Of a DNA stretch of 64,000 bases, positions 33,994 through 62,224 are shown one piece after another. The first letter of the stretch is position 1; each line of letters starts with the position of its first letter. The notes beneath the pieces were generated by a model, which was not told where the DNA came from, did no database searches, and saw only the letters and a program-made list of their open reading frames with translations. The position numbers and the translations under genes were made by a program. Source of the DNA: Opitutus sp. GAS368 (GTDB lineage Bacteria; Verrucomicrobiota; Verrucomicrobiia; Opitutales; Opitutaceae); contig CAMDOO010000001.1 of the NCBI GenBank assembly GCA_945903545.1, positions 1 through 64,000 of the forward strand, given 5' to 3'.

Positions 33994-34695
33994 ATGGTCA
34001 TGCAGCTCCTGTTTTCCCCGATTTTTGGTATGAATCTCTTCGAGCTCTTCAAGGGCGTCGACCCCGTGGGACAGGCGATCTCGGTCCTGCTCGGCGTTTT
34101 CAGCATCATCGCCTGGGCGGTCATGTGGAACAAGCACCGCGAGCTGAAGCAGCTGCGCCGCCTTAATCACCTCTTCGAGCGCAACCTCCGGAAGGAGTCC
34201 ACGATCCTGAACCAGCCCGACGCGGGCCGCGACCAGCGCACGATCCCCTACGCCGACCTGTTCGCCGACGCCGTCGAGGCCTACTGGCGCGCGGCGGCGA
34301 TCGGCAAGGAGAAGGGCGAGGACACGCTTCGCGCGCGGCTCGAGCATTCCGAGAACGCGATCCAGCGGGCGCTCGCTCGCCAGACGCTGCGCTACGAATC
34401 GAGCATGATCTTCCTTGCCTCGATCGTTTCCGGCGCGCCCTTCATGGGCATGTTCGGCACGGTCTGGGGCGTGATGGAGGCGTTCAGCTCGATCTCGGGG
34501 GACAGCGTCGGCATCAAGGAGCTCGCGCCCGGTGTCACGGCCGCCCTGTTCACGACGATCATGGGCCTGGTCGTCGCGATCCCGTCCGTCTTCGGCTACA
34601 ACTTCCTGCTCGGCTCGACCAAGCAGCTGATTACCGAGCTGGAAAACTACGCCAGCTCGCTCGCCGACCGGATCGAGCTCGAGAGCACGAAGTAA
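33994..34695 (+). CDS. exbB: ExbB-type proton channel subunit
   Basis: 233 residues with three membrane helices (about 27-44, 140-160 and 182-205). The MotA/TolQ/ExbB core has ASIVSGAPFMGMFGTVWGVM and AALFTTIMGLVVAIPSVFGY. It forms the inner-membrane proton channel with ExbD and powers the TonB-like protein encoded two genes later. The ATG at 33994 is used, but ATGs at 34003 and 34030 are possible. It is divergent from the PfkB kinase gene, with a 101-base gap. Confidence 0.92.
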   Translation: MVMQLLFSPIFGMNLFELFKGVDPVGQAISVLLGVFSIIAWAVMWNKHRELKQLRRLNHLFERNLRKESTILNQPDAGRDQRTIPYADLFADAVEAYWRAAAIGKEKGEDTLRARLEHSENAIQRALARQTLRYESSMIFLASIVSGAPFMGMFGTVWGVMEAFSSISGDSVGIKELAPGVTAALFTTIMGLVVAIPSVFGYNFLLGSTKQLITELENYASSLADRIELESTK

Positions 34696-34707
34696 GGGAC
34701 CACTGCC

Positions 34708-35139
34708 ATGGCCCGCAATTTCCGCCGTCCCCGTTCCGCGCAGCCGATCGCGGACCTGAACGTGACCAACCTGATCGACCTGGGTTTCACGCTCCTCATC
34801 ATCTTCATGATCGCGACCCCGCTGATCGTGAAGGAGCAGTCGATCAAGCTGAACCTGCCCACCGAGACGGCGCGACCGCAGGAAAAGTCCGACAACACGC
34901 CGGTGCAGGCGGTCTCGATCACCAAGGCCGGCGAGATTTTCTGGGGCACGCGCAAGGTCACCATGGCCGAGCTGGCGTCGCTCATGACGGACGCGGACAA
35001 GCGGGCCAAACCGCCGATCATCAGCGTCCGGCCCGACAAAGATGCCATCGTGGAGCGGTTGATGACGGTGATTGATGAGGTGAAAAAGCACCCCAACCTG
35101 AGCAAGAAGTTGGACATCGCGACCCAGCCTGCGAAGTGA
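34708..35139 (+). CDS. exbD: ExbD/TolR-type subunit
   Basis: 143 residues with a short cytosolic start, one membrane helix NLIDLGFTLLIIFMIATPL carrying the proton-relay Asp (residue 26), and a periplasmic domain with the standard ExbD end. It starts 12 bases after exbB and precedes the TonB-like gene by 10 bases, so the three are one operon. Confidence 0.92.
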   Translation: MARNFRRPRSAQPIADLNVTNLIDLGFTLLIIFMIATPLIVKEQSIKLNLPTETARPQEKSDNTPVQAVSITKAGEIFWGTRKVTMAELASLMTDADKRAKPPIISVRPDKDAIVERLMTVIDEVKKHPNLSKKLDIATQPAK

Positions 35140-35149
35140 CGCTTTCCGG

Positions 35150-36019
35150 ATGACGCAACGTCTCTCCAGTGCGATTCTCACCTCGGCCCTGTTCCATGCG
35201 GGGGCCATCGCGCTGATTGTGGCGCTCACTTATCTGGCCGGTCTCCGCACGGGCAAGCCGGTGACTTTCTTCGAACTCGTGGCGGGCGACGGCGACAACT
35301 ACATGGCCACCGAGGCGCCCGCGCTGGGCACCGCCGACGGCAACCCGGCGAATGTGGCCGCACCCGAAGCCCCGGCACCCGCGATGGTGGTGACCGCGAA
35401 GGCCCCGGCGCCCGCTCCGGCGGAGCGGCCCGTGGATTTCTCCAAAGCCGTTCAGAAGGTTGCAGCCAAGGAGACGGCGAAGATCGCCGCCAAGACCAAG
35501 GCCGAGGAGAAGGCGGCCGAGAAGGCCGCGAAGGAGGAGGCGGCCAAGCAGGCGAAGATGACCAAGGAGGAATATGACCGGCAGACCAAGGGCAGCAAGA
35601 CACCGCCGGTCGCTAATCAGAAGACGAATGTCCCCAAGATCGACGCCAAGGGCATCGCCGGCGGCGTGGTGGGCGGCTCGACCGCCAACACCAAGGGCGG
35701 TGCGGGTGGCACGGCGATGACGGCGGCCGCGCGCGGGGTGGTGGAGGGCTACACCTCCCTGCTTAAGGACCGGCTGCAGACCAACCTGCAGGACCAAAGC
35801 CCTCCGGGCCTGAGTGATACCCTGGTAGCCACCGCCTCGATGCGAATGCTGGCGGACGGAACCCTGGCGAGTGGCGTCATCACCAAGTCGTCAGGCAACC
35901 GCGAGTTCGACAAGGCCGTGCTGGATTCCATCCGCCTGACCAAGATGCCGCCGCGGCCGTCCGGCTTCGAGACGGGGACGTTCACCCTGGATTTCAAGGC
36001 CCGGGACAAGAACGAGTAA
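35150..36019 (+). CDS. TonB/TolA-like energy transducer
   Basis: 289 residues. An N-terminal signal anchor (8-29) is followed by a Pro/Ala stretch (about 80-95), an Ala/Lys/Glu-rich helical region (about 105-145), a Gly-rich linker, and a C-terminal TonB-type domain with ASMRMLADGTLASGVITKSSG and FDKAVLDSIRL. The Ala/Lys/Glu helix is more like TolA, so this could be a Tol-type system; no tolB or pal is adjacent. It spans the periplasm and passes the ExbBD proton-driven force to an outer-membrane receptor. Confidence 0.85.
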   Translation: MTQRLSSAILTSALFHAGAIALIVALTYLAGLRTGKPVTFFELVAGDGDNYMATEAPALGTADGNPANVAAPEAPAPAMVVTAKAPAPAPAERPVDFSKAVQKVAAKETAKIAAKTKAEEKAAEKAAKEEAAKQAKMTKEEYDRQTKGSKTPPVANQKTNVPKIDAKGIAGGVVGGSTANTKGGAGGTAMTAAARGVVEGYTSLLKDRLQTNLQDQSPPGLSDTLVATASMRMLADGTLASGVITKSSGNREFDKAVLDSIRLTKMPPRPSGFETGTFTLDFKARDKNE

Positions 36020-38199: not shown

Positions 38200-39783
38200 T
38201 CAACGCGCCTCGGCCCCCATCGGAGGCAGGGCGGCGAGGCCCAGTGGGCGCAAGCGGGCGGTGATCTCAGCGAGCAGGGGTTCGCGGGCGATCTCGTCCC
38301 AGGGCCGGCTGCTGGAGATGCGCACGAACATTTGGTCGCCGGCGCGGCGGAAGCCGTAGCGCAGCGCGATCTCAAGGAGGTTTTTCGGTGAAAGCGGGTC
38401 GAGGTAGGGGATGGGCTGGCGGTCGTAGAGGTGCCAGTACCAGACATTCTGCAGGTAGGCCTGGCTCCGGAACTGGCGGTACTGGGCGGCGGCCAGCTCC
38501 TGGTTGGCGGCGGCGATCCGAACCTTGGTTTCCCCGACCGGCACGGGCAGCCAGCCTCCGCCCGGCCAGCAGGCGTCCGGAGTGTGGGTGGCGACCTGGC
38601 TCACGCTGGCCTGGCCGGGCAGCCAGTAGGCGAGGTAGACGGTGAGGTCGATCGGCGGCCGACCGGGGTCGCGGCGCACGTAGGTGCGCTGCACGAACCG
38701 CTCGGTCCGGAGGGTGTCGGCAAAGCGGTGGAGATCCGTGGCGGTGGAGACCTGCCAGCCGCCGAAGCTGGCGGGCAGGAGGGCCTCGACGTCCGGCGCG
38801 GGGTGGTCCTCGCGCGGCACGCGCATCGAGAAGAAAAGGAACACGCCCAGCAGCGCCGTCGCGAGGCCGAGGCCGGCGGACAGCACGAGCGCCGGCCGGC
38901 GCGCCCGGGCCGCGGCGCCCTGCGCGGGGGGCGTGGACTCGGTCTCGCCGCGCGACAGCCACAGGGCGAGCCCGCCCAGGATCACGGCGGTGACGCCGAG
39001 GATGGCGTAACCGGTGGCGTCGTGCCATGCGCCGGAGATGTCGACGCCGTCGTTGGCCAGCAGCGTGAGGGCGAGGGAGCGGATGAAGTTCATCCCGAGG
39101 GCGAGCGGGGCGGCGAGGGCGATGACCACGGCGCGGGCCCAGGGCCGGCGGACGAGGAAACCCGAGAAAAAAAGGGCGGCGTAGATGCAGGAGATGAGGC
39201 TGCGCACGCCGCTGCAGGCCTCCTCGACGCCGACGGTGGTGCGCGCGAGCTCGATGATGTTGCCGTGCTGGGTGGCGGCGATGCCGAGGAGATGGAGCGC
39301 CTGGAGCACGTTGCCCGAGACCCAGAGCTGGAGGCCGAGGGTGATCCGCGCGTAGGTTCCGGGCGGGATCGGCGCGCTTGCGAGCCAGAGGCCGGCGCCG
39401 AGGAGCGCGGCCCAGTTGAAGGGAATCAGGCGGAGGTCGTCGCGGGCCAACGCCAGCAGTCCCGCCAGCAGGAACAGCGCGAGGGCCCCGGCGAAGACGA
39501 ACCCGACCATGCCGTGCGACCAGCCGAGCGCGGCGGCGTACAGCCCGCCTGCGCCGACCGCGAGCAGCCCGGCCACCAGGCACGCGGCGAGCGCGGCGTT
39601 GAGGCCCGGGCTGGCCGGCAGGTAGCGGAAGGGGCCCGCCCGGCGGGCCTCGGCGAAGAGGATGAGGGCCACCACGGGCGCGAACAAACCGTGCGACAGG
39701 TCGGGGTTGCCGCGCCATTGCGGCCAGAGCAGCACCGACAGGCCCGCGACCGCCAGCGCGAGCAGCCCGAGGCTGATCCGCAC
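38200..39783 (-). CDS. Exosortase fused to an EpsI domain
   Basis: 527 residues. About eight membrane helices carry the exosortase catalytic set: Cys in VEEACSGVRSL, Arg in MNFIRSLAL and His in SGAWHDATGY. After a last helix comes a soluble EpsI-type domain (FGGWQVSTATDLHRF, VYLAYWLPGQASV, THTPDACWPGGGW). Exosortases process PEP-CTERM proteins at the outer face of the inner membrane; a substrate is encoded at 51290-52057. The GTG at 39783 is my choice. The frame is open to an ATG at 39978, but that ATG lies in a GTAGGG repeat. Confidence 0.88.
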   Translation of the reverse strand: MRISLGLLALAVAGLSVLLWPQWRGNPDLSHGLFAPVVALILFAEARRAGPFRYLPASPGLNAALAACLVAGLLAVGAGGLYAAALGWSHGMVGFVFAGALALFLLAGLLALARDDLRLIPFNWAALLGAGLWLASAPIPPGTYARITLGLQLWVSGNVLQALHLLGIAATQHGNIIELARTTVGVEEACSGVRSLISCIYAALFFSGFLVRRPWARAVVIALAAPLALGMNFIRSLALTLLANDGVDISGAWHDATGYAILGVTAVILGGLALWLSRGETESTPPAQGAAARARRPALVLSAGLGLATALLGVFLFFSMRVPREDHPAPDVEALLPASFGGWQVSTATDLHRFADTLRTERFVQRTYVRRDPGRPPIDLTVYLAYWLPGQASVSQVATHTPDACWPGGGWLPVPVGETKVRIAAANQELAAAQYRQFRSQAYLQNVWYWHLYDRQPIPYLDPLSPKNLLEIALRYGFRRAGDQMFVRISSSRPWDEIAREPLLAEITARLRPLGLAALPPMGAEAR

Positions 39784-39941
39784 GGGCCAGGACAGGGACT
39801 GAAGGTTCCGATTACCCGGAGCTGCCGGTTTGCCAAGCACACGGCACGGTACGATGGGTGCCCCCACCGGCAAAGCGAAATCACCGCGGGCAAATACGCA
39901 GGCCAGGGTGCGGTCTTGTTTCCGCGCCGAGCTGGTCGCAG

Positions 39942-40033
39942 GTAGGGTTGCCTCGAAGAGGCGACCGCGATGATCCATCCCGGCCGGGTCGTCGACCCAG
40001 CCCTACCGTTCGATCCGGGCGGCGAGCGGAGTC
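39942..40033. repeat. GTAGGG hairpin element upstream of the exosortase gene
   Basis: GTAGGGTTGCCTCGAAGAGG and its continuation GCGACCGCGATGAT match copies at 19851 and 59810. A GGGTCGTCGACCC hairpin and CCCTAC close the first part at 40006. A second small hairpin (GGCGAGCGGAGTCGCC) ends CCCTAC at 40033. Confidence 0.8.
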
Positions 40034-40074: not shown

Positions 40075-40821
40075 TCAGGGCCCCTGCTTGACCAGGCTGA
40101 TCGTCGGGTCGTTTGTGCTCAGCTTGATCGTGCGCTGCACGTTCGTGTCGGCCCCGACGTAGCCGACCAGCGCGGAGGCGAGCAGCGGCAGGTACTTTCT
40201 CAGGTCGTTGCTTTCGTCCTCGCTGGAGATGCTCACGGTCCAGAGATCGCCGGCGGTGGCGCCGCCGCGGGCCTCGCGGGCCGAGAGGCGGATGAATTTC
40301 TCGTAGGTGGTGACCGGCACGAGGATGGGCTCGTAGCCGATGAGCTGCGTGCCGGGTGGGGCGAGCGAGGGCACGGTGCGGGTGGTGGTGGCGCCGGTGG
40401 CCGACGTGACCTGGCGCGGGCCGTAGACCACGCCGCCGCCGTTCTGCGCGTAGATTGGCACCATCATCTCCTCCATGTGCGTCTTCGGCTTGTCCATGCC
40501 GTACTCGACGTCGATCAGCATGTCGGCCGCGGCGAGGTTGGGCGCCTCGTACAGGCCGCGGCCGTTAAGCGCGGACTTCACCATGGCGATGGTTTCCTGC
40601 GAGCGGAGGCCGTCGGCGTCCTTGCCACCGCTCCGGTCGCGCAGCTGGTAGGCCTGCAGGTCGCCGCTCGGCGCACGGCGGATGGCCTGGATGCGGGCCT
40701 CGGGCGGGGCGCTCGAGGTGTCGACCTTCATGCTGTAGGTGTTCACGCACCCGGCCGCGGCGGCGCAGACCAGCAAGGCCGCGGCCCGCGTCAGGATCCG
40801 GAAGGCGGGGCGGGCGGGCAT
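40075..40821 (-). CDS. Lipoprotein of unknown function
   Basis: 248 residues with a lipoprotein signal ending AAAAGC (Cys near 25), so it sits in a membrane facing the periplasm. The rest is a mixed alpha/beta domain resembling DUF4136-type lipoproteins (AADMLIDVEYGMDKPK near the middle and a long C-terminal region). No catalytic motif. It lies 17 bases after another lipoprotein gene on the same strand, so they are likely made together. Confidence 0.75.
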   Translation of the reverse strand: MPARPAFRILTRAAALLVCAAAAGCVNTYSMKVDTSSAPPEARIQAIRRAPSGDLQAYQLRDRSGGKDADGLRSQETIAMVKSALNGRGLYEAPNLAAADMLIDVEYGMDKPKTHMEEMMVPIYAQNGGGVVYGPRQVTSATGATTTRTVPSLAPPGTQLIGYEPILVPVTTYEKFIRLSAREARGGATAGDLWTVSISSEDESNDLRKYLPLLASALVGYVGADTNVQRTIKLSTNDPTISLVKQGP

Positions 40822-40838
40822 GGCGGGTGGGCGGCCGA

Positions 40839-41537
40839 CTACTTCGCGGCCGTGGCAGCGGGTCCGGCCGGCGGCGTCGCGTTGGCCGGGGTGCCCGGGA
40901 TCAGCGGGGCCGTGTTCACGGGTGCGGTCAGGAGTTCGTTGCCGCGGAGGCGCTTGATCTGCTCCTCCATCTTGGCGGCCTCGACCTGGGCGGCGAGTTC
41001 CTTTTCCTTCAGCTCGTCGAGCTTCTTGGTCTTGTTGTAGGCGGCCTGGTACTCCTCGCGGTACTGCTTGAGTTTGGCCTCGGCCTCGGCGGTTCGCTTC
41101 TCGGCCTCGGTCATTTCCAGATCGGTGATGAGGAAACCCTTGCGGACGGCGAGCTCCTCCTCGAGGGCCATCTTCTGCTTGGCCTCCTCGGTGCGGCGCT
41201 TGGAGATGTCGGCGTTGTAGGCGCGTTCCTGGGCGAGGGCATCCTGCTCGCGATTGCTGCGGGCCTGCTGGATCGCTCCGATGGCGCCGCCGATGATCGC
41301 GCCGGCGGCGACGCCGCCGACGATCGCCGCACCGGAATTCATGCTGGAGTTGGGCGCGACGGCGCCGGCGATCGCCGCGGCCGAGCCGCCGACCATTGCG
41401 CCGGTGCCGGCGCCGCTCACGGTCTTCGACGGCGGGGCGCCGCTGCTGGCACAGCCGCCCGCGAAGAGCGCGAGGGCGGTGCCGCAGCAGACGAGCGGGG
41501 TGAGGGGGAAGCGGGAGCGCGGGGAGGATGGGCTCAT
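40839..41537 (-). CDS. Lipoprotein with glycine zipper and coiled coil
   Basis: 232 residues. The lipobox LFAGGC (Cys near 29) is followed by a Gly/Ala-rich glycine zipper (AAIVGGVAAGAIIGGAIGAI, about 69-88) that could insert in a membrane, then a long Glu/Lys/Ala coiled coil (about 95-200) and a Pro/Ala tail. Divergent from the ExbB-like gene at 41723 across a 185-base gap. First gene of a minus-strand group of two lipoproteins. Envelope structural role inferred. Confidence 0.75.
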   Translation of the reverse strand: MSPSSPRSRFPLTPLVCCGTALALFAGGCASSGAPPSKTVSGAGTGAMVGGSAAAIAGAVAPNSSMNSGAAIVGGVAAGAIIGGAIGAIQQARSNREQDALAQERAYNADISKRRTEEAKQKMALEEELAVRKGFLITDLEMTEAEKRTAEAEAKLKQYREEYQAAYNKTKKLDELKEKELAAQVEAAKMEEQIKRLRGNELLTAPVNTAPLIPGTPANATPPAGPAATAAK

Positions 41538-41722: not shown

Positions 41723-42580
41723 ATGATTTCCCGAAAAAAGGGGCTGCTTTCCCTCGACTTCCTCGTCCCCAACCTCGGCTTGCTGCTGGCCATCGTGCTG
41801 GTCGAGGGACTTTACTCCACGTGGATCCGACCCCGCGCCGAGGAACTGCTCATCGAGCGCCGGGCCTACCTCTCGCAAGGCGCGTCCGGGGCGACCAAGC
41901 TGCAGACGCGGCACATTGAGCTGATCATCAAGGATCTTGAGCCCCAGGTGGAGGTGATCTTCTGCGTGTGGGGTGTTTTTTTCCTCGGTTACAAGATGTG
42001 GATGATGCGCCGCGAGCAGCGGCTGCTCGACGTGGATTTCGTGCGCTTGCAGCCGGGCGAGCGCATCCTGCCGGAGGACGCACTGGACCGCTACAAGGAG
42101 CTGAAGAGCCAGGTCGACCGGAACCCGCGCTGGCGGGATCGCCTGCTGCCCGACTTCATCCTCGCGGCGCTGCATCGTTTTCATGCGACCAGCTCGATCC
42201 AGGATGCGTCGATGGCGGTCAAGGAGCGCGCGGAACTCGCCGCGGACCAGCTCGACTCGTCACTTTCGCTCGTGCGCTACATCGCGTGGGCCATCCCCGC
42301 GATCGGCTTCGTCGGCACGGTGCGCGGCATCGGCGACGGCCTCAATCACGCCGAGGAGGCGATCAAGGGCGACATCAGCCAGGTCACGAGCCAGCTCGGC
42401 CTGGCGTTCAACTCGACCTTCGTCGGCCTCATCCTCTGCATCGTGCTGATGTATCTGATCCACATCGTGCAATCCAGTCAGGAGGCCTTCATCATCGAGA
42501 CGCAGGCCATCTGCCGCGACCGGCTGATCGACGTGATGAAAGTGCCGACCAAGGACGAGTCGGCCGGCATGCTCTCCTGA
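41723..42580 (+). CDS. MotA/TolQ/ExbB-like channel protein
   Basis: 285 residues. An N-terminal helix (about 9-31), an outer loop, and a second helix (about 76-95) lead into a long cytosolic part. The family core has two helices: YIAWAIPAIGFVGTVRGIG (186-204) and LGLAFNSTFVGLILCIVLMY (225-244). The Pro-x-x-Gly and the Thr/Ser-rich helices match the proton-channel family. It is unlike the ExbB at 33994 in length and order. It starts a four-gene operon with an Hsp70-like protein and two VWA proteins, so it is likely the stator part of a dedicated machine. Confidence 0.85.
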   Translation: MISRKKGLLSLDFLVPNLGLLLAIVLVEGLYSTWIRPRAEELLIERRAYLSQGASGATKLQTRHIELIIKDLEPQVEVIFCVWGVFFLGYKMWMMRREQRLLDVDFVRLQPGERILPEDALDRYKELKSQVDRNPRWRDRLLPDFILAALHRFHATSSIQDASMAVKERAELAADQLDSSLSLVRYIAWAIPAIGFVGTVRGIGDGLNHAEEAIKGDISQVTSQLGLAFNSTFVGLILCIVLMYLIHIVQSSQEAFIIETQAICRDRLIDVMKVPTKDESAGMLS

Positions 42581-42595
42581 CCGGAGCCCACCACC

Positions 42596-44080
42596 ATGGC
42601 CATCCTGGGAATCGATCTATCGGACGCGGGGGTGCTGGCGGCCAGCGTCATCGGCGATGAATACCGGCTTCTGCCGGCCACCAAGGGCGGCGAAACGGTC
42701 ACGCCCTGGGCGGGCTTCGCCCTGCATGACGGGCGGAAAATGCTCTACGGCCCGGCCGCCGAGGACGCGTGGTTCATGAGCCCGCGCCGGGTGACCCATG
42801 GTTTCCTCGCCCGCCTTACGCACGATCCCGTCGCCCTCAACCTGCCCGGCAAGATGCCGTCGCACTCCGAGCTGGCGTTTCACTTCCTCGGGGAGTTTTT
42901 CGAGCACGTGGGGTCCGGTGCGGACCCGCTCAAGAGTGTGGTCCTCGCGGTGCCCGGCGCCTACCTGCGCGACGCCGCCACTGAGGAGGAGCGCATCGGC
43001 CTGCTCCTCGGCATTGCCAGCGAGCTGAAGCTCCCGCTGGCGGCGATCATCGACAGCGCCTGTGCCGGCCTCGCCGACCCGGCGGCCCCCGCGATCAACC
43101 CGGCGCTGCCGGTGCTGGTCCTGGACGTGCACCTCCACGCGGCGGAGATCAGCCTCCTGGGCGGTGAGAAGCGGCTGGCGCGTCGGGCCTACGCCGAGGT
43201 GCCGCATGCCGGCATGGCGCAGCTGCTCAAGCACCTGAACGCCGCGATGGGTAACCGTTTCCTGCGCCACACCACGTTCGACATCCTCGCCGACGGCCGG
43301 TTCGAACAGATGTTCTACCGCCAGACCAAGCTCTTCGTGCAGGGCGGTGCGTCCGAGTTCCGCTACCATGTGCACACGGACCAGCGCGCCTACGAGATGC
43401 CGGCCAAGCACGAGCAGCTGGTCGTGGACAGCCAGACGTTCATCCGCCAGATCGAGGCCGTCCTCCAGCCCTTTGCCCGCGAGCAGGACGTCGCCCCCGA
43501 TGCCTGCACCGTGGTCCTGACCGAGCGCGCGTCCGCGGTTCCCGGCCTCGAGGCCCGGCTGCGTACCGCGGGTTATCGCCGGGTCGTGCGGCTGTCCACC
43601 GGGGCGGTTGCGCGTGGCGCCGCGCGGCTCGCTGCGCGTTCCGAGGTGCCCGCCGACCTTGCGGATGTGGCCGTCGAGACCTCGGTTCCGTTGTCGGACC
43701 TGCACCGCGGCGGGTCGGCCCCGTGGCGCATCCACCTGCACAAGGGCCGTGCCACCGGCGCGGCGGTGCCGACCCATGTCGTGATCGCCGGCACCGGCCA
43801 CCCCATCGGCGGCAACGGCACGTTCATGATCGGCACCGAGGCCGCCGGGCCGGACCTGGTCCTGCCGGGTAATTTCGACGCCGAGAGCGACGGCGCGATC
43901 GCGCTGGTGCGCGACGGCGGCCGCCTCTGGCTCAAGGAGCCCGGCGCCAACGGGGAGCAGGCCACCCTCAACGCGCTCGAGGCGGGCGACCGGGTCTCCG
44001 TGCACGGCGCCGGCGGCGCGGGCGAGCTGCTCTTCATCCATTGTGTGCCGGCGGGCGGTCCGCCCCGGGGCCACGAGTAG
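42596..44080 (+). CDS. Hsp70-fold protein with FHA-like C-terminus
   Basis: 494 residues. The Hsp70/actin-fold beginning is MAILGIDLSDAGVLAASV, and VVLAVPGAYLRDAATEEERI (about 121-140) followed by AIIDSACAGLA parallels the Hsp70 pattern. The second phosphate loop reads VLVLDVHLHAAE rather than DLGGGT, so ATP hydrolysis is doubtful. The C-terminal 120 residues form an FHA-like sandwich with FMIGTEAAGPDLVLP and ANGEQATLNALEAGDRVSV. The SxxH phosphothreonine pair is missing. It has no membrane helix. Cytosolic adaptor of the adjacent channel is inferred. Confidence 0.75.
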   Translation: MAILGIDLSDAGVLAASVIGDEYRLLPATKGGETVTPWAGFALHDGRKMLYGPAAEDAWFMSPRRVTHGFLARLTHDPVALNLPGKMPSHSELAFHFLGEFFEHVGSGADPLKSVVLAVPGAYLRDAATEEERIGLLLGIASELKLPLAAIIDSACAGLADPAAPAINPALPVLVLDVHLHAAEISLLGGEKRLARRAYAEVPHAGMAQLLKHLNAAMGNRFLRHTTFDILADGRFEQMFYRQTKLFVQGGASEFRYHVHTDQRAYEMPAKHEQLVVDSQTFIRQIEAVLQPFAREQDVAPDACTVVLTERASAVPGLEARLRTAGYRRVVRLSTGAVARGAARLAARSEVPADLADVAVETSVPLSDLHRGGSAPWRIHLHKGRATGAAVPTHVVIAGTGHPIGGNGTFMIGTEAAGPDLVLPGNFDAESDGAIALVRDGGRLWLKEPGANGEQATLNALEAGDRVSVHGAGGAGELLFIHCVPAGGPPRGHE

Positions 44081-44101
44081 GCCGCCAGCGGAGGACACGG
44101 C

Positions 44102-45163
44102 ATGTCGGTCTCCAGCAAACGTCGCGACACGGAGGTCTTTAGCATGGCCTTCCTCGACTGCATTTGCTGCGGCTTCGGGTCGATGATCCTCGTGTTCATC
44201 CTGACCCTGTCCCAGCAGCGCTCGCTCGAGATGGAGAGCGTGGAGGAGATCCAGGCCAAGGTCCGCGCGGCCGAGCAGCAGGTGACGATCTCCCAGGAGG
44301 AGGCCGACCGCATCCTGCGGCAGCTGATGAAGACCCGCGTCGAGATCGAGACCGCCGAGCAGGACCAGAAGTTCACCGAGCTGAAGATCTCCGACCGGCA
44401 GCGCGAGCTGATGCTGCTCCTGCAGGACATCGGATCGATGAAGGATGCGCGCAACACCCTGCTCGACGACAAGAAGCTCATCCCCACCGAGGAGAAGAAG
44501 AACCTGCCCATCCCCAATCCCGGCCAGTACCTCACCGGGATCAACCTCAGCGGGGAGTATATCCTCTTCCTCGTGAGAATGTCGGGCAGCATGCTTGACG
44601 ACACGCCCGACGCCGCCTTCGCCCGCCTGGGCGACCCCGACTTCAAGAAGCGCCAGGCCCCGAAGTGGCAGCGCGTGATCCGCTCGCTCAAGTGGATGCT
44701 CGCGAGCCTCGGCCCCGACACGCACTTCAAGATCATGCTCTTCAACGAGGACACCGTGCCGCTGCTGCCCAGCCGGCCCAACGAGTGGCTCCCCAGCAAG
44801 GACCGGCAGGTGCTCCGCGAGGTTGTCACCCGGCTCGACGAGCTTGTCCCGAAGGGCGGTGCCAACTTGGAGAAGGCGTTCGCCACCGTGCGCTTCATGC
44901 CGCGCCTGCCCGACAACCTCGTGCTGCTGACCGACGGCCTGCCGACGCTGAGCGACTCCATCCCGACGGACGGCGCGGTCGGCCAGGAGCAGCGCATCCG
45001 GTTCTTCGAGGTGGCGGAACGCCTCCGGCCCTCCCGCGTGCCGGTGAGCACCATCCTCTTTCCGCTCAGCGGCGATCCCGCCGCCGGCTGGCTCTACTGG
45101 CGCCTGGCCGCCCGCAGCAACGGCGCCATCATCAGCCCCTCGGAAGGCTGGCCCGAGATATGA
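44102..45163 (+). CDS. VWA protein with ExbD/MotB-like anchor, altered MIDAS
   Basis: 353 residues. A short N-terminus leads into the helix AFLDCICCGFGSMILVFILT (16-35) with an Asp at 19. A coiled coil (about 45-115) and a VWA domain (about 150-345) follow. The MIDAS reads LVRMSGSM: Arg159, from codon AGA, stands where Asp is expected. The later LLTDGLPTLSD is kept. The helix is arranged as in ExbD/MotB (N-terminus in, Asp near its start), putting the VWA domain in the periplasm. Its stop overlaps the next start by four bases. Confidence 0.8.
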   Translation: MSVSSKRRDTEVFSMAFLDCICCGFGSMILVFILTLSQQRSLEMESVEEIQAKVRAAEQQVTISQEEADRILRQLMKTRVEIETAEQDQKFTELKISDRQRELMLLLQDIGSMKDARNTLLDDKKLIPTEEKKNLPIPNPGQYLTGINLSGEYILFLVRMSGSMLDDTPDAAFARLGDPDFKKRQAPKWQRVIRSLKWMLASLGPDTHFKIMLFNEDTVPLLPSRPNEWLPSKDRQVLREVVTRLDELVPKGGANLEKAFATVRFMPRLPDNLVLLTDGLPTLSDSIPTDGAVGQEQRIRFFEVAERLRPSRVPVSTILFPLSGDPAAGWLYWRLAARSNGAIISPSEGWPEI

Positions 45164-46170
45164 TCCGCCGCCGCCCCACCACGGTCTTCAGCCTGGCCTT
45201 CCTCGACTGCATTTGCTGCGGGTTCGGGGCGATGATCCTCGTGTTCGTGCTGAGCGTCAGCGCCCACGACCAGGACAAGATCAAGACCATCGAGAGCCTC
45301 CGCCGCATCCTTGCCTCGCAGCTCGCCGCGATTGCCCGGGTCAAGGACGAGCAGGACGAGCTGAACAAGAACAACTCGAACGCCGCCCAGCGCCTTGCCG
45401 AGATCCGTCTGACCAATGACCGGATCACCTCGCTGCTCGACGACATGGACCGCAAGATCCAGCAGGAGAAGAGCGGCAAGGCGGCCCTCGCCGTCGACCT
45501 CGACGAGCTGCAGAAGGAAATCGCCGCCCGGCAGAAGCGGGCCGACCCCATCCTGCCCAACATCAAGCCCGCCCCGCTCGGCGTGCCGCTGGGCAGCAAC
45601 TACATCGCCTTTGTCATCGATACCTCCGGCAGCATGCGGGACGCCAGCACCGGCTACCGGCTTTACGCCAGCATCGTGCGCAAAATTTCCGACGTGCTCG
45701 ACGTCTACCCCACCGTCAAGGGCATCCAGATCCTCAATTCCGACGGCGGTTTTGTCTTCGGCAACAGCCAGCAGGAGTGGCTCCCGGACACCCCGGAGAT
45801 CCGCGACCGGATCAAGCGCGTGCTCCGCACCTACGATACGGTCTGCGAAAGCAATCCCGTGCCCGGCATCTACCGGGTGTTCACCCGGCTCTACCGGCCC
45901 AAGGATCCCGACATGAAGCTCGGCATCTACGTCTTCGGCGATGAGTTCACGGCCACGGCCGACGCCGTGCTGAAGCGCCTCGACGAGCTCAACCCGGCGG
46001 ATGCCGACGGCAAGCGCCCGGTCGTGATCAACGCGGTCGGTTTCCCCACCACGATCTACGCCGACCTGCCGTTCGACCTCAGCAACACCGGCGTGAAGTA
46101 CGCCAATCTGCTGCGCGAGCTCGCCTTCCAGCACGGCGGCGCGTTCATCGGCATGCAGGATCTGTACTGA
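45160..46170 (+). CDS. VWA protein with ExbD/MotB-like anchor, intact MIDAS
   Basis: 336 residues, a sister of the gene before it. The anchor AFLDCICCGFGAMILVFVLS (13-32) has Asp at 16 and differs in few positions from its partner. A coiled coil (about 36-125) and a VWA domain with MIDAS VIDTSGSM (152-159) follow, with VFGDEFTATADAVLK near the end. The intact DxSxS predicts divalent-metal-dependent ligand binding. Its ATG overlaps the upstream TGA. A larger frame runs upstream from 44665, but it is a shadow of the previous gene. Confidence 0.82.
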   Translation: MIRRRPTTVFSLAFLDCICCGFGAMILVFVLSVSAHDQDKIKTIESLRRILASQLAAIARVKDEQDELNKNNSNAAQRLAEIRLTNDRITSLLDDMDRKIQQEKSGKAALAVDLDELQKEIAARQKRADPILPNIKPAPLGVPLGSNYIAFVIDTSGSMRDASTGYRLYASIVRKISDVLDVYPTVKGIQILNSDGGFVFGNSQQEWLPDTPEIRDRIKRVLRTYDTVCESNPVPGIYRVFTRLYRPKDPDMKLGIYVFGDEFTATADAVLKRLDELNPADADGKRPVVINAVGFPTTIYADLPFDLSNTGVKYANLLRELAFQHGGAFIGMQDLY

Positions 46171-60235: not shown

Positions 60236-62098
60236 CTACCTCGCTCCCGCGCGCTGCTGCAAAATCCGTCGCACCTGCGCCAGGTTCGCCGCGGCCGACG
60301 CATTGCCGGGATCGAGCTTCAGCGCTTCCTCGAACGCCTGCGCTGCCTGCTCGAACTGGCTGGCCTCGCCGAGGACATTGCCCATGCGGATCAGCGGTTC
60401 CGGGTTTTCGGGCGCGCGCCGCCGCGCCTCCTGGAATTGTGCCAGTGCCTCGGGCAGATGGCCGGTCTTCGCCAGCGACAGGGCCAAGTTCATCCGGGCC
60501 GCGATGTGCCCGGGCTTGGCTTGCACGGCCGCCTCATAATGCGGCTGGGCCTCGGTGAACTGGCCGACCCGCGCCTTGATGTTACCCAAGTTATAATGCG
60601 CCTCGGCATTCTTCGGGTCGAGCCGGGCCGCTGCCCGGTACTCTCCCGCGGACTCGTCTTCCCGGCCGGCGGCAAACAGCACGGTGCCGTGGTTGAGGTG
60701 GATCTCGGAATAGTCCGGGAACGTCGCCACCAGCGCCTCCCCGCGGCGAACCGCTTCGTCCAACCGCCCCGCGGCCATCAGTTCGAGGACCAGGTTGATG
60801 TTGGCCCGGACGTTTTCCGGCACCTTCAGCGCCGTGTCTTCCCAGATGGCAAGGGTCGAGCGGTAATCGAGATTCCGCTCGATCGTGGCGAGGCCGGCGC
60901 CGACCACGGCAATGGCCAGCACGGCCCGCGCCCGGCGGCCGAGGGCGAGGCAGAGCCAGGCGGTGAGCGGCACCACCAGGGCCGCCAGCGGCAGGTACAT
61001 CCGGTGCTCCGCGATCGTCTGTGTTTGCAGCGGAACAAAGCTCGAGCTCGGGGCCAGGATCACGAAAAACCACGCTCCGAGGAAACCTGCCACGGGCCGG
61101 TGCCGCAGCGCCCAGCTGGTCCCCGCGAGCAGGGTGAGCAGCAGCAGGCCCTGCAGCCAGACGGCACCTGGGCCACTCACGACGTCTGTGCCGTAGTCGA
61201 GCACCAGCGGGTGGGGCCAGAACGAGAGACGTAGGTACAGTCCGATCGCCTTGCACTGGGTCAGGAGGTAATCGATCGAGCTGACGCCGAGTCCGAAACC
61301 CACCGTGCCGCCGCGCCCGCCACTGCCGAGGATCAGGCCGGTCAGCGGGATCCACGAGGCGAACAAGGCGAGATGCAAGCCCCGCCGTTGCCGCCACGCT
61401 TCGCGGAAGGTGCCCGCCAGGAAGGTCCGGTCGAAGAGCATGAGCAGCACCGGGGCAGTGGCCATCACCTCCTTGCTCAGCACGCCGAGGAAACACGCCG
61501 CCACCGTGATGCTCTTCCAGCGCGCGCTGCCGTTGGCCGTGGGATCCGTGGCCCGGACGAATCCATAGCAGGTGAACAGATAGATCAGCCCCACCAGTCC
61601 CTCCGTGCGCTGGATGACGCAGGTCACGGTCTCGGTCTGCAGCGGGTGCACGGCCCAGAGCAGGGCTGAACCGAGCGCGACCGGCAGGGCGAGGGTACCC
61701 CAGCGGGGCTGGAACGAGGGCAGCAGCAGGGTGCGCCGGACCAGGCCGAACAGCGCGAGTGCCGCCAGCGCATGCAACGCAAGATTGACCGCATGATATC
61801 CGGTGGGATTCAGCCCGCCGGCCGCATAGTTCAGGGCCAGGCTGAGGTTAAACAGGGGCCGGCTGTTGGCGCTCGAGCCGACATTCGACGGCGCCGCCAG
61901 CACGGTCCGCAGGTCGCCGAGATGGCGGATCGTCTGGTTCTCCACGATACCCGGGAGGTCGTCGAAAACGAAGGGCGCGTGCAGGCTGTTCGTGTAGACC
62001 GCCACCACCGCGGCCACGATCAGTCCGGCGCCCAGCAGGATCCGGCCCCGGGATGAGCCGGACCGGGGAGGCGAGGGTGGGGCCGACCGCGCGGGCAT
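60236..62098 (-). CDS. Membrane glycosyltransferase-like TPR protein (TMTC type)
   Basis: 620 residues. About ten membrane helices cover residues 20-400, with the outer loop PFVFDDLPGIVENQTIRHLG near the start and SRPLFNLSLALNYAAGGLNP after it. That is the layout of the TMTC/DUF1736 family, which has the Asp-Asp in the first outer loop. TPR repeats at the C-terminus (about 430-610) look periplasmic or cytosolic. These families are relatives of GT-C mannosyltransferases acting on lipid-linked sugars; the acceptor is unknown. ATG 62098 is chosen over TTG 62137. Confidence 0.82.
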   Translation of the reverse strand: MPARSAPPSPPRSGSSRGRILLGAGLIVAAVVAVYTNSLHAPFVFDDLPGIVENQTIRHLGDLRTVLAAPSNVGSSANSRPLFNLSLALNYAAGGLNPTGYHAVNLALHALAALALFGLVRRTLLLPSFQPRWGTLALPVALGSALLWAVHPLQTETVTCVIQRTEGLVGLIYLFTCYGFVRATDPTANGSARWKSITVAACFLGVLSKEVMATAPVLLMLFDRTFLAGTFREAWRQRRGLHLALFASWIPLTGLILGSGGRGGTVGFGLGVSSIDYLLTQCKAIGLYLRLSFWPHPLVLDYGTDVVSGPGAVWLQGLLLLTLLAGTSWALRHRPVAGFLGAWFFVILAPSSSFVPLQTQTIAEHRMYLPLAALVVPLTAWLCLALGRRARAVLAIAVVGAGLATIERNLDYRSTLAIWEDTALKVPENVRANINLVLELMAAGRLDEAVRRGEALVATFPDYSEIHLNHGTVLFAAGREDESAGEYRAAARLDPKNAEAHYNLGNIKARVGQFTEAQPHYEAAVQAKPGHIAARMNLALSLAKTGHLPEALAQFQEARRRAPENPEPLIRMGNVLGEASQFEQAAQAFEEALKLDPGNASAAANLAQVRRILQQRAGAR

Positions 62099-62224
62099 AG
62101 GGTGGCGCCAGCCAGGCAATCTTTCTGAAACGCTCAACGCTCAACTTTTAACGCTGCTCAATTCCTGCCGCCGCGACCAACTGCCAATTGCCAACGACCA
62201 ACTTCCTTGTTCCGCTCGTCCTCT

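Follow-up and report, generated by a model that had tools for sequence, protein, structure and literature searches.

Few 5:2 ion motors have been characterised, and every one of them serves a job of its own, be it motility, iron uptake, outer-membrane integrity, phage defence or type IX secretion. The closest described relatives of the locus analysed here are the paired 'transpore-helix vWA' (TPH-vWA) proteins encoded beside a tolQ-like gene (Williams-Jones et al. 2025; PMC12204202, Fig. 4c-d). Among vWA proteins tethered to the membrane these constitute a second family, found in Proteobacteria and Verrucomicrobia and occurring mostly as heterologous pairs; tolQ co-occurs with them and tolR/exbD is absent (PMC12204202). 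AF3 models of the family place the Asp pair inside the Thr ring of the channel, giving a predicted 5:2 motor. The text of the paper offers no name for the TPH-vWA/TolQ-like system, is silent on Hsp70, FHA domains and kinases in connection with TPH-vWA, and refers to a TPR gene only for its other vWA family. The other literature searched yielded no further description of the system, nor was an experiment on any of its members found.

The window, by which we mean the whole stretch of 64,000 nucleotides from Opitutus sp. GAS368 that was analysed, contains an operon of this type. It consists of gene A (41723..42580, +), a MotA/TolQ/ExbB-like channel subunit of 285 amino acids; gene H (42596..44080, +), a predicted cytoplasmic pseudo-Hsp70 (residues ~1-370) with a C-terminal FHA-like domain (~390-485), assigned with AF2 and Foldseek; gene V1 (44102..45163, +), with an N-terminal Asp helix (Asp19), a coiled coil and a VWA domain with a degenerate MIDAS; and gene V2 (45160..46170, +), in which the Asp helix (Asp16) with its CCGFGA motif leads into a helix of ~100 residues and a VWA domain, as seen in its AF2 model. 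The shared strand, the gaps of 15 bp (A-H) and 21 bp (H-V1) and the 4-bp overlap of V1 and V2 define a single operon. An earlier note on this DNA had read the locus as a tight operon of an ExbB-type channel, an Hsp70-fold/FHA-like adaptor and two proteins combining an Asp helix, a coiled coil and VWA; the gene models and the profile and structure results given below bear this out. Its remark that no named system with this set was known has to be corrected, since the core of A and V1/V2 was already in print as a prediction, though unnamed in the text of PMC12204202.

The window operon fits every tested feature of the TPH-vWA/TolQ-like family as given in that text. A tolQ-like gene adjoins the vWA genes and has no tolR/exbD with it, two heterologous vWA genes are paired in the window and its relatives, the pore helix is N-terminal with a conserved Asp and without the SHLS motif, and the channel Thr ring is conserved. 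Compared with the text of PMC12204202, the system described here adds genes for the Hsp70/FHA adaptor, a PEGA-FGE protein, the VDA family, lipoproteins and an M48 protease, as well as a difference between V1 and V2 in whether the MIDAS is intact; none of this is mentioned there. As far as searched, the new elements are H as a pseudo-Hsp70/FHA protein, a wider and partly unlinked set of partners, the co-occurrence of VDA and TPR proteins with the operon, and the MIDAS loss in V1.

The channel protein A passes the Pfam MotA_ExbB cut-off (3e-13) and contains three to four hydrophobic segments. Thr199 and Thr232 are invariant in the family alignment (71/71 sequences); by motif (GTV; NST) we take them to be the pore Thr pair of TolQ/ExbB/MotA. 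A genome-wide profile search found five MotA_ExbB genes and five ExbD genes in the window genome. Every one of these ExbD genes sits next to an ExbB-like gene other than A; each of the other four ExbB-like genes has an ExbD alongside, and no ExbD/TolR gene lies beside A. Two kinds of ion motor are thus close neighbours in the window, where a canonical ExbB-ExbD-TonB-like operon (34333-36019, +) lies upstream of the VWA motor genes, 6-7 kb away.

V1 and V2 each show a single clear hydrophobic segment, which is N-terminal, and the helix Asp is invariant in the alignments of the recovered families (83/83 for V1 and 83/83 for V2). It is followed by a CGFGA-type motif that, to our knowledge, is absent from ExbD. 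Inspection of the V1 and V2 helices revealed neither an SHLS-type motif nor a His. By sequence, V1 scores exactly at the Pfam VWA_3 cut-off and V2 below it; the AF2 model of V2 (pLDDT 82) comprises a continuous helix (21-124) that leads into a VWA fold similar to many solved VWA domains. The structure predictions made here are of single chains, and in the V2 monomer the Asp region is modelled at low confidence (pLDDT about 50-55). At 1.5 Å per residue, the ~80 residues of the V proteins beyond the membrane amount to about 12 nm, and they could thus cross much of the periplasm.

The metal sites of the two VWA heads are unequal. V2 has a complete MIDAS by motif (D154, S156, S158, D261), and these residues, like D16, C20 and A24, are invariant (83/83). 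The MIDAS of the window V1 is degenerate (R159-M-S161-G-S163). Across the family, the first MIDAS position of V1 is D in 61/83 sequences and R or E in 22/83; as far as labels show, these 22, the window copy included, are all from Opitutales, and the residue appears to have been lost throughout that order. With the V2 MIDAS intact and the first V1 Asp gone, the two heads probably differ in function in the Opitutales clade. The earlier note had described the VWA ending as a ligand- or metal-binding domain; of the two window proteins only V2 keeps an intact metal site, as R159 replaces the first MIDAS Asp in V1. Selenocysteine at the Cys motif was considered for four genomes with an in-frame TGA flagged in V1 and was rejected, each TGA being a stop codon plus read-through. 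In a Porticoccaceae bin (L079 3763-4991, -), V1 is split over two open frames, a frameshift or an assembly error. One sampled genome (G249) has A-H-V1 (L064) and V2 (L068) on separate contigs and is the only one in which V1 and V2 are clearly non-adjacent.

The V1/V2 pair occurs in 23 of the 388 genomes sampled from the phylum, with A adjoining in nearly all. When one genome per species was scanned with a degenerate DNA pattern encoding FLDxxxCG[FL]GA, the helix motif, at least 119 stretches were recovered. Among the matches listed, at least one core gene was present in 77 of the 80 pattern loci examined, and one of the three without (L088) ends right at the motif. Gammaproteobacteria predominate among the hosts of the matches listed, which also include Alphaproteobacteria, Desulfobacterota and Verrucomicrobiota. 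A, V1 and V2 stand together in nearly every sampled locus, and the order A-(H)-V1-V2 is common to all four groups, as exemplified by the gammaproteobacterial Pseudoalteromonas denitrificans (L132; A-H-V1-V2). The conserved neighbourhood on which the earlier note had staked its reading is therefore present, and because the order recurs across phyla, the four-gene set is not a chance arrangement. Plasmid carriage was rejected, with no V2 match among 72,556 plasmids.

H gave no match in Pfam or NCBIfam. Its AF2 model (pLDDT 87) adopts the nucleotide-binding fold of Hsp70; the best matches in a Foldseek search of the PDB were all Hsp70, and comparison with the NBD-only chain 6h9u_A yielded a TMt of 0.76 (3.6 Å over 394 columns). 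None of the Hsp70 ATP-binding motifs (DLGTTxS, DLGGGT, GGSSR) is found in H, whose phosphate motif reads DVHLHA where Hsp70 has DLGGGT and whose adenosine motif reads LTERAS where Hsp70 has GGSSR. As the glycines of these motifs are lost and are unconserved across 40 H homologues, H is probably a pseudo-ATPase. The C-terminal domain passes the Pfam FHA cut-off in six homologues, most of them with the SRKH signature. The window copy is degenerate and has lost this signature, which makes phosphothreonine binding by the window H unlikely; the fold may persist. Like Hsp70/DnaK and the PilM/FtsA-like adaptors, H is built on the Hsp70 nucleotide-binding-domain fold; unlike them, it has no ATP motifs, and FHA replaces the substrate-binding domain. 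H is missing from 16 of the 56 pattern loci with both A and V1 in view, and from four Opitutales loci (L018, L019, L053, L054). The operon hence exists in a four-gene form with H and a three-gene form without it, and H is dispensable.

Flanking-gene clustering and a profile survey gave the proteobacterial order LPup - TPR - FPF - A - (H) - V1 - V2 - LP1 - LP2 - M48. Counts in the 80 pattern loci, among the matches listed and with many loci ending at 8 kb, are 42 for FPF, 28 for TPR, 28 for LP1, 23 for LP2, 18 for M48 and 13 for LPup. FPF carries 4-5 PEGA domains and an FGE-sulfatase domain (Pfam), preceded by an FHA-like N-terminal segment and a transmembrane helix that were read from the sequence. 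In the window genome no FHA-PEGA-FGE protein was found, only FGE-type matches. The M48 companion is BepA-like and occurs in Opitutaceae and Gammaproteobacteria neighbourhoods alike. Opitutaceae loci have a pair of lipoprotein genes divergent from A (40075-41537 in the window). The nearer one, GZ (40839..41537, -), combines a glycine zipper (weak YiaD-type match) with a coiled coil and a lipobox, GGC, visible in its sequence; it is adjacent and divergent in most Opitutales loci. The second (40075..40821, -; DUF4136 E 0.0012, below cut-off) is kept beside GZ in Opitutaceae loci.

Six Opitutaceae loci (L016, L050, L051, L052, L055, L113) carry VDA and TPR genes on the opposite strand and then M48 after V2. 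The window genome holds the VDA-TPR-M48 trio about 60 kb from the operon (G000:C1:104-109 kb; L193 4253-9287); the TPR protein of this trio is a membrane protein and the M48 protease a lipoprotein. VDA is an unnamed, secreted-looking family in which a domain of ~100 residues is joined to a tail of low complexity or of DGDGIPN repeats, and the C-terminus is hydrophobic. It occurs in 22 of the 388 genomes, and 21 of these 22 carry the operon, out of 23 operon genomes in all (Fisher p 2e-31, with no correction for shared ancestry); two genomes have the operon without VDA (G224, G376) and one has VDA without the operon (G103). The window's own family shows a patchy yet identical pattern, with 10/30 genomes carrying operon and VDA and 20/30 neither. 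The C-terminal domain of the TPR protein was found in 24/388 genomes, 22 of them operon genomes. VDA and TPR genes are often unlinked to the operon, on other contigs or megabases off (1.52 vs 3.68 Mb in G308), and their co-occurrence with it is thus not mere linkage. Because the M48, TPR and lipoprotein families are rich in paralogues, their adjacency counts for less than the profile-based co-occurrence of VDA and the TPR C-terminus. The 1.7-Mb genome G103 encodes VDA and a TPR protein without the motor operon and is possibly a remnant of genome reduction.

Known ion motors share parts of this design. ExbBD-TonB and TolQR-TolA-Pal likewise have a MotA/TolQ/ExbB channel, an Asp-helix partner and outer-membrane work. 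They differ in that their partner ends in the small ExbD/TolR domain, which was not found in the A/V1/V2 operon, whereas here VWA ends the partner, two different proteins make up the putative axle and no TonB/TolA-type transducer is present. The MotAB/PomAB stators resemble the set in the three to four hydrophobic segments of A and in an Asp-helix partner with a long periplasmic part, but here there is neither an OmpA-like peptidoglycan-binding domain nor a flagellar rotor. GldLM with GldK/N, the type IX secretion motor, also pairs an ion motor with a long periplasmic partner, and GldK is related to the FGE-fold domain of FPF, which matches it at 1.7e-29 yet scores far short of the GldK cut-off. 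GldM, however, consists of stacked periplasmic domains without VWA, and type IX secretion genes were not seen here.

We propose that the operon encodes a 5:2-type inner-membrane ion motor serving an outer-membrane task, with V1/V2 as its axle and H as its gate, and assign this reading a probability of about 75%. The channel and the Asp helix on the VWA proteins had led the earlier note to an ion motor, and the invariant Thr and Asp residues and the absence of an ExbD beside A agree with it. Since Thr199/Thr232 and the V1/V2 helix Asp are the set typical of force-generating motors, they argue for force generation by A/V1/V2. Five copies of A would form the channel, and one V1 with one V2 the axle, a 1:1 heterodimer suggested by the gene pairing. 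Their N-terminal helices would sit in the pore, each with one Asp facing the Thr ring, as the conserved residues indicate and as has been modelled by others (PMC12204202). Ion flow would then turn or shift these helices, in a rotation and stoichiometry that we infer. The straight helix or coiled coil of ~80 residues would carry the VWA heads as far as the peptidoglycan or the outer membrane. There, the V2 head with its complete metal site probably grips a ligand, presumably acidic, and the V1 head, its site lost in the Opitutales clade, is probably a structural or regulatory partner. H probably docks on the cytoplasmic face of the motor or on the short V tails and gates it, in a manner reminiscent of the PilM-type adaptors in pili.

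The force would most likely be spent on an outer-membrane task together with the lipoproteins, the membrane TPR protein, the secreted VDA and the BepA-like protease. The lipoproteins, protease and VDA lead us to favour outer-membrane work over cell adhesion, which the earlier note had raised as a possible role alongside the sensing of envelope tension. We more tentatively envisage, at somewhat less than even odds, a widespread trans-envelope machine of ~8-10 genes in which the FHA/pseudo-Hsp70 acts as a phospho-reader controlling the motor from the cytoplasm, a client of the outer membrane or a secreted one, for example VDA, is moved or assembled by unequal VWA heads, only one of which grips by way of a metal site, and a dedicated BepA-like protease provides quality control. 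The proposed motor spans several phyla, with paired VWA domains replacing the usual axle ending, and the links to H, VDA, TPR and the BepA-like protease supply concrete partners that make its job directly testable.

The same proteins could instead form a gated ion channel or an envelope-tension sensor, with the V proteins as plugs of A that a pull on the VWA heads would open and the ions as a signal, not a drive for movement, read out by H/FHA. A fixed ligand for the VWA heads is conceivable, and FHA domains in H and, from its sequence, in FPF, as well as the kinase fused to a TPR companion in one locus, would fit signalling. We nevertheless regard this as unlikely: the Asp-Thr combination is the one known from force-generating motors, pore residues and Asp are invariant, and loss of H in so many loci means that the core does not need it. 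The absence of the SHLS-type motif and the His, the invariant Asp in the helix and the lack of an ExbD/TolR gene beside A also speak against V proteins working as Tol/Ton-like transducers at the side of a TolQR-type motor, which is how the first vWA family of Williams-Jones et al. (PMC12204202) is read. That family has the same architecture of transmembrane helix and VWA, yet we consider such a role very unlikely here.

An anti-phage defence motor like Zorya (ZorAB) would equally combine a MotA-type channel with an Asp-helix partner, and A gives weak matches to ZorA profiles (4e-6). This assignment is highly improbable, given that the operon has no OmpA-like ZorB, no ZorC or ZorD and no nuclease gene, that A is without a long cytoplasmic tail, and that the partner ends in VWA among lipoproteins, TPR/PEGA proteins and a BepA-like protease. 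The missing plasmid matches and a gene order stable over phyla, unlike defence-island shuffling, point the same way. VWA proteins are often adaptors of AAA+ ATPases, and with the Hsp70 fold of H this might indicate a metal-insertion or chaperone module merely adjoining a channel gene. We give this the lowest probability, as the operon contains no AAA+ gene, the ATP motifs of H are lost, and the V proteins are anchored in the membrane and carry an Asp of the pore type. The force-generating motor remains our preferred reading.

Several smaller observations concern the surroundings of the operon. A TPR-profile match at window 60236-62137 was rejected as the companion, being a different, multi-pass TPR protein. 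An upstream Ser/Thr kinase was likewise rejected as a general part, since the profile survey shows a kinase domain in one pattern locus only (L147). This locus, from Woeseiaceae, encodes a fusion of the TPR companion with the Ser/Thr kinase domain (L147 5394-7754, -), which suggests phospho-control of FHA-bearing partners. Within the window, an exosortase/EpsI-like fusion gene (38200-39978, -) lies upstream of the lipoprotein pair and a PEP-CTERM-like protein is encoded near 52 kb, both read from sequence only.
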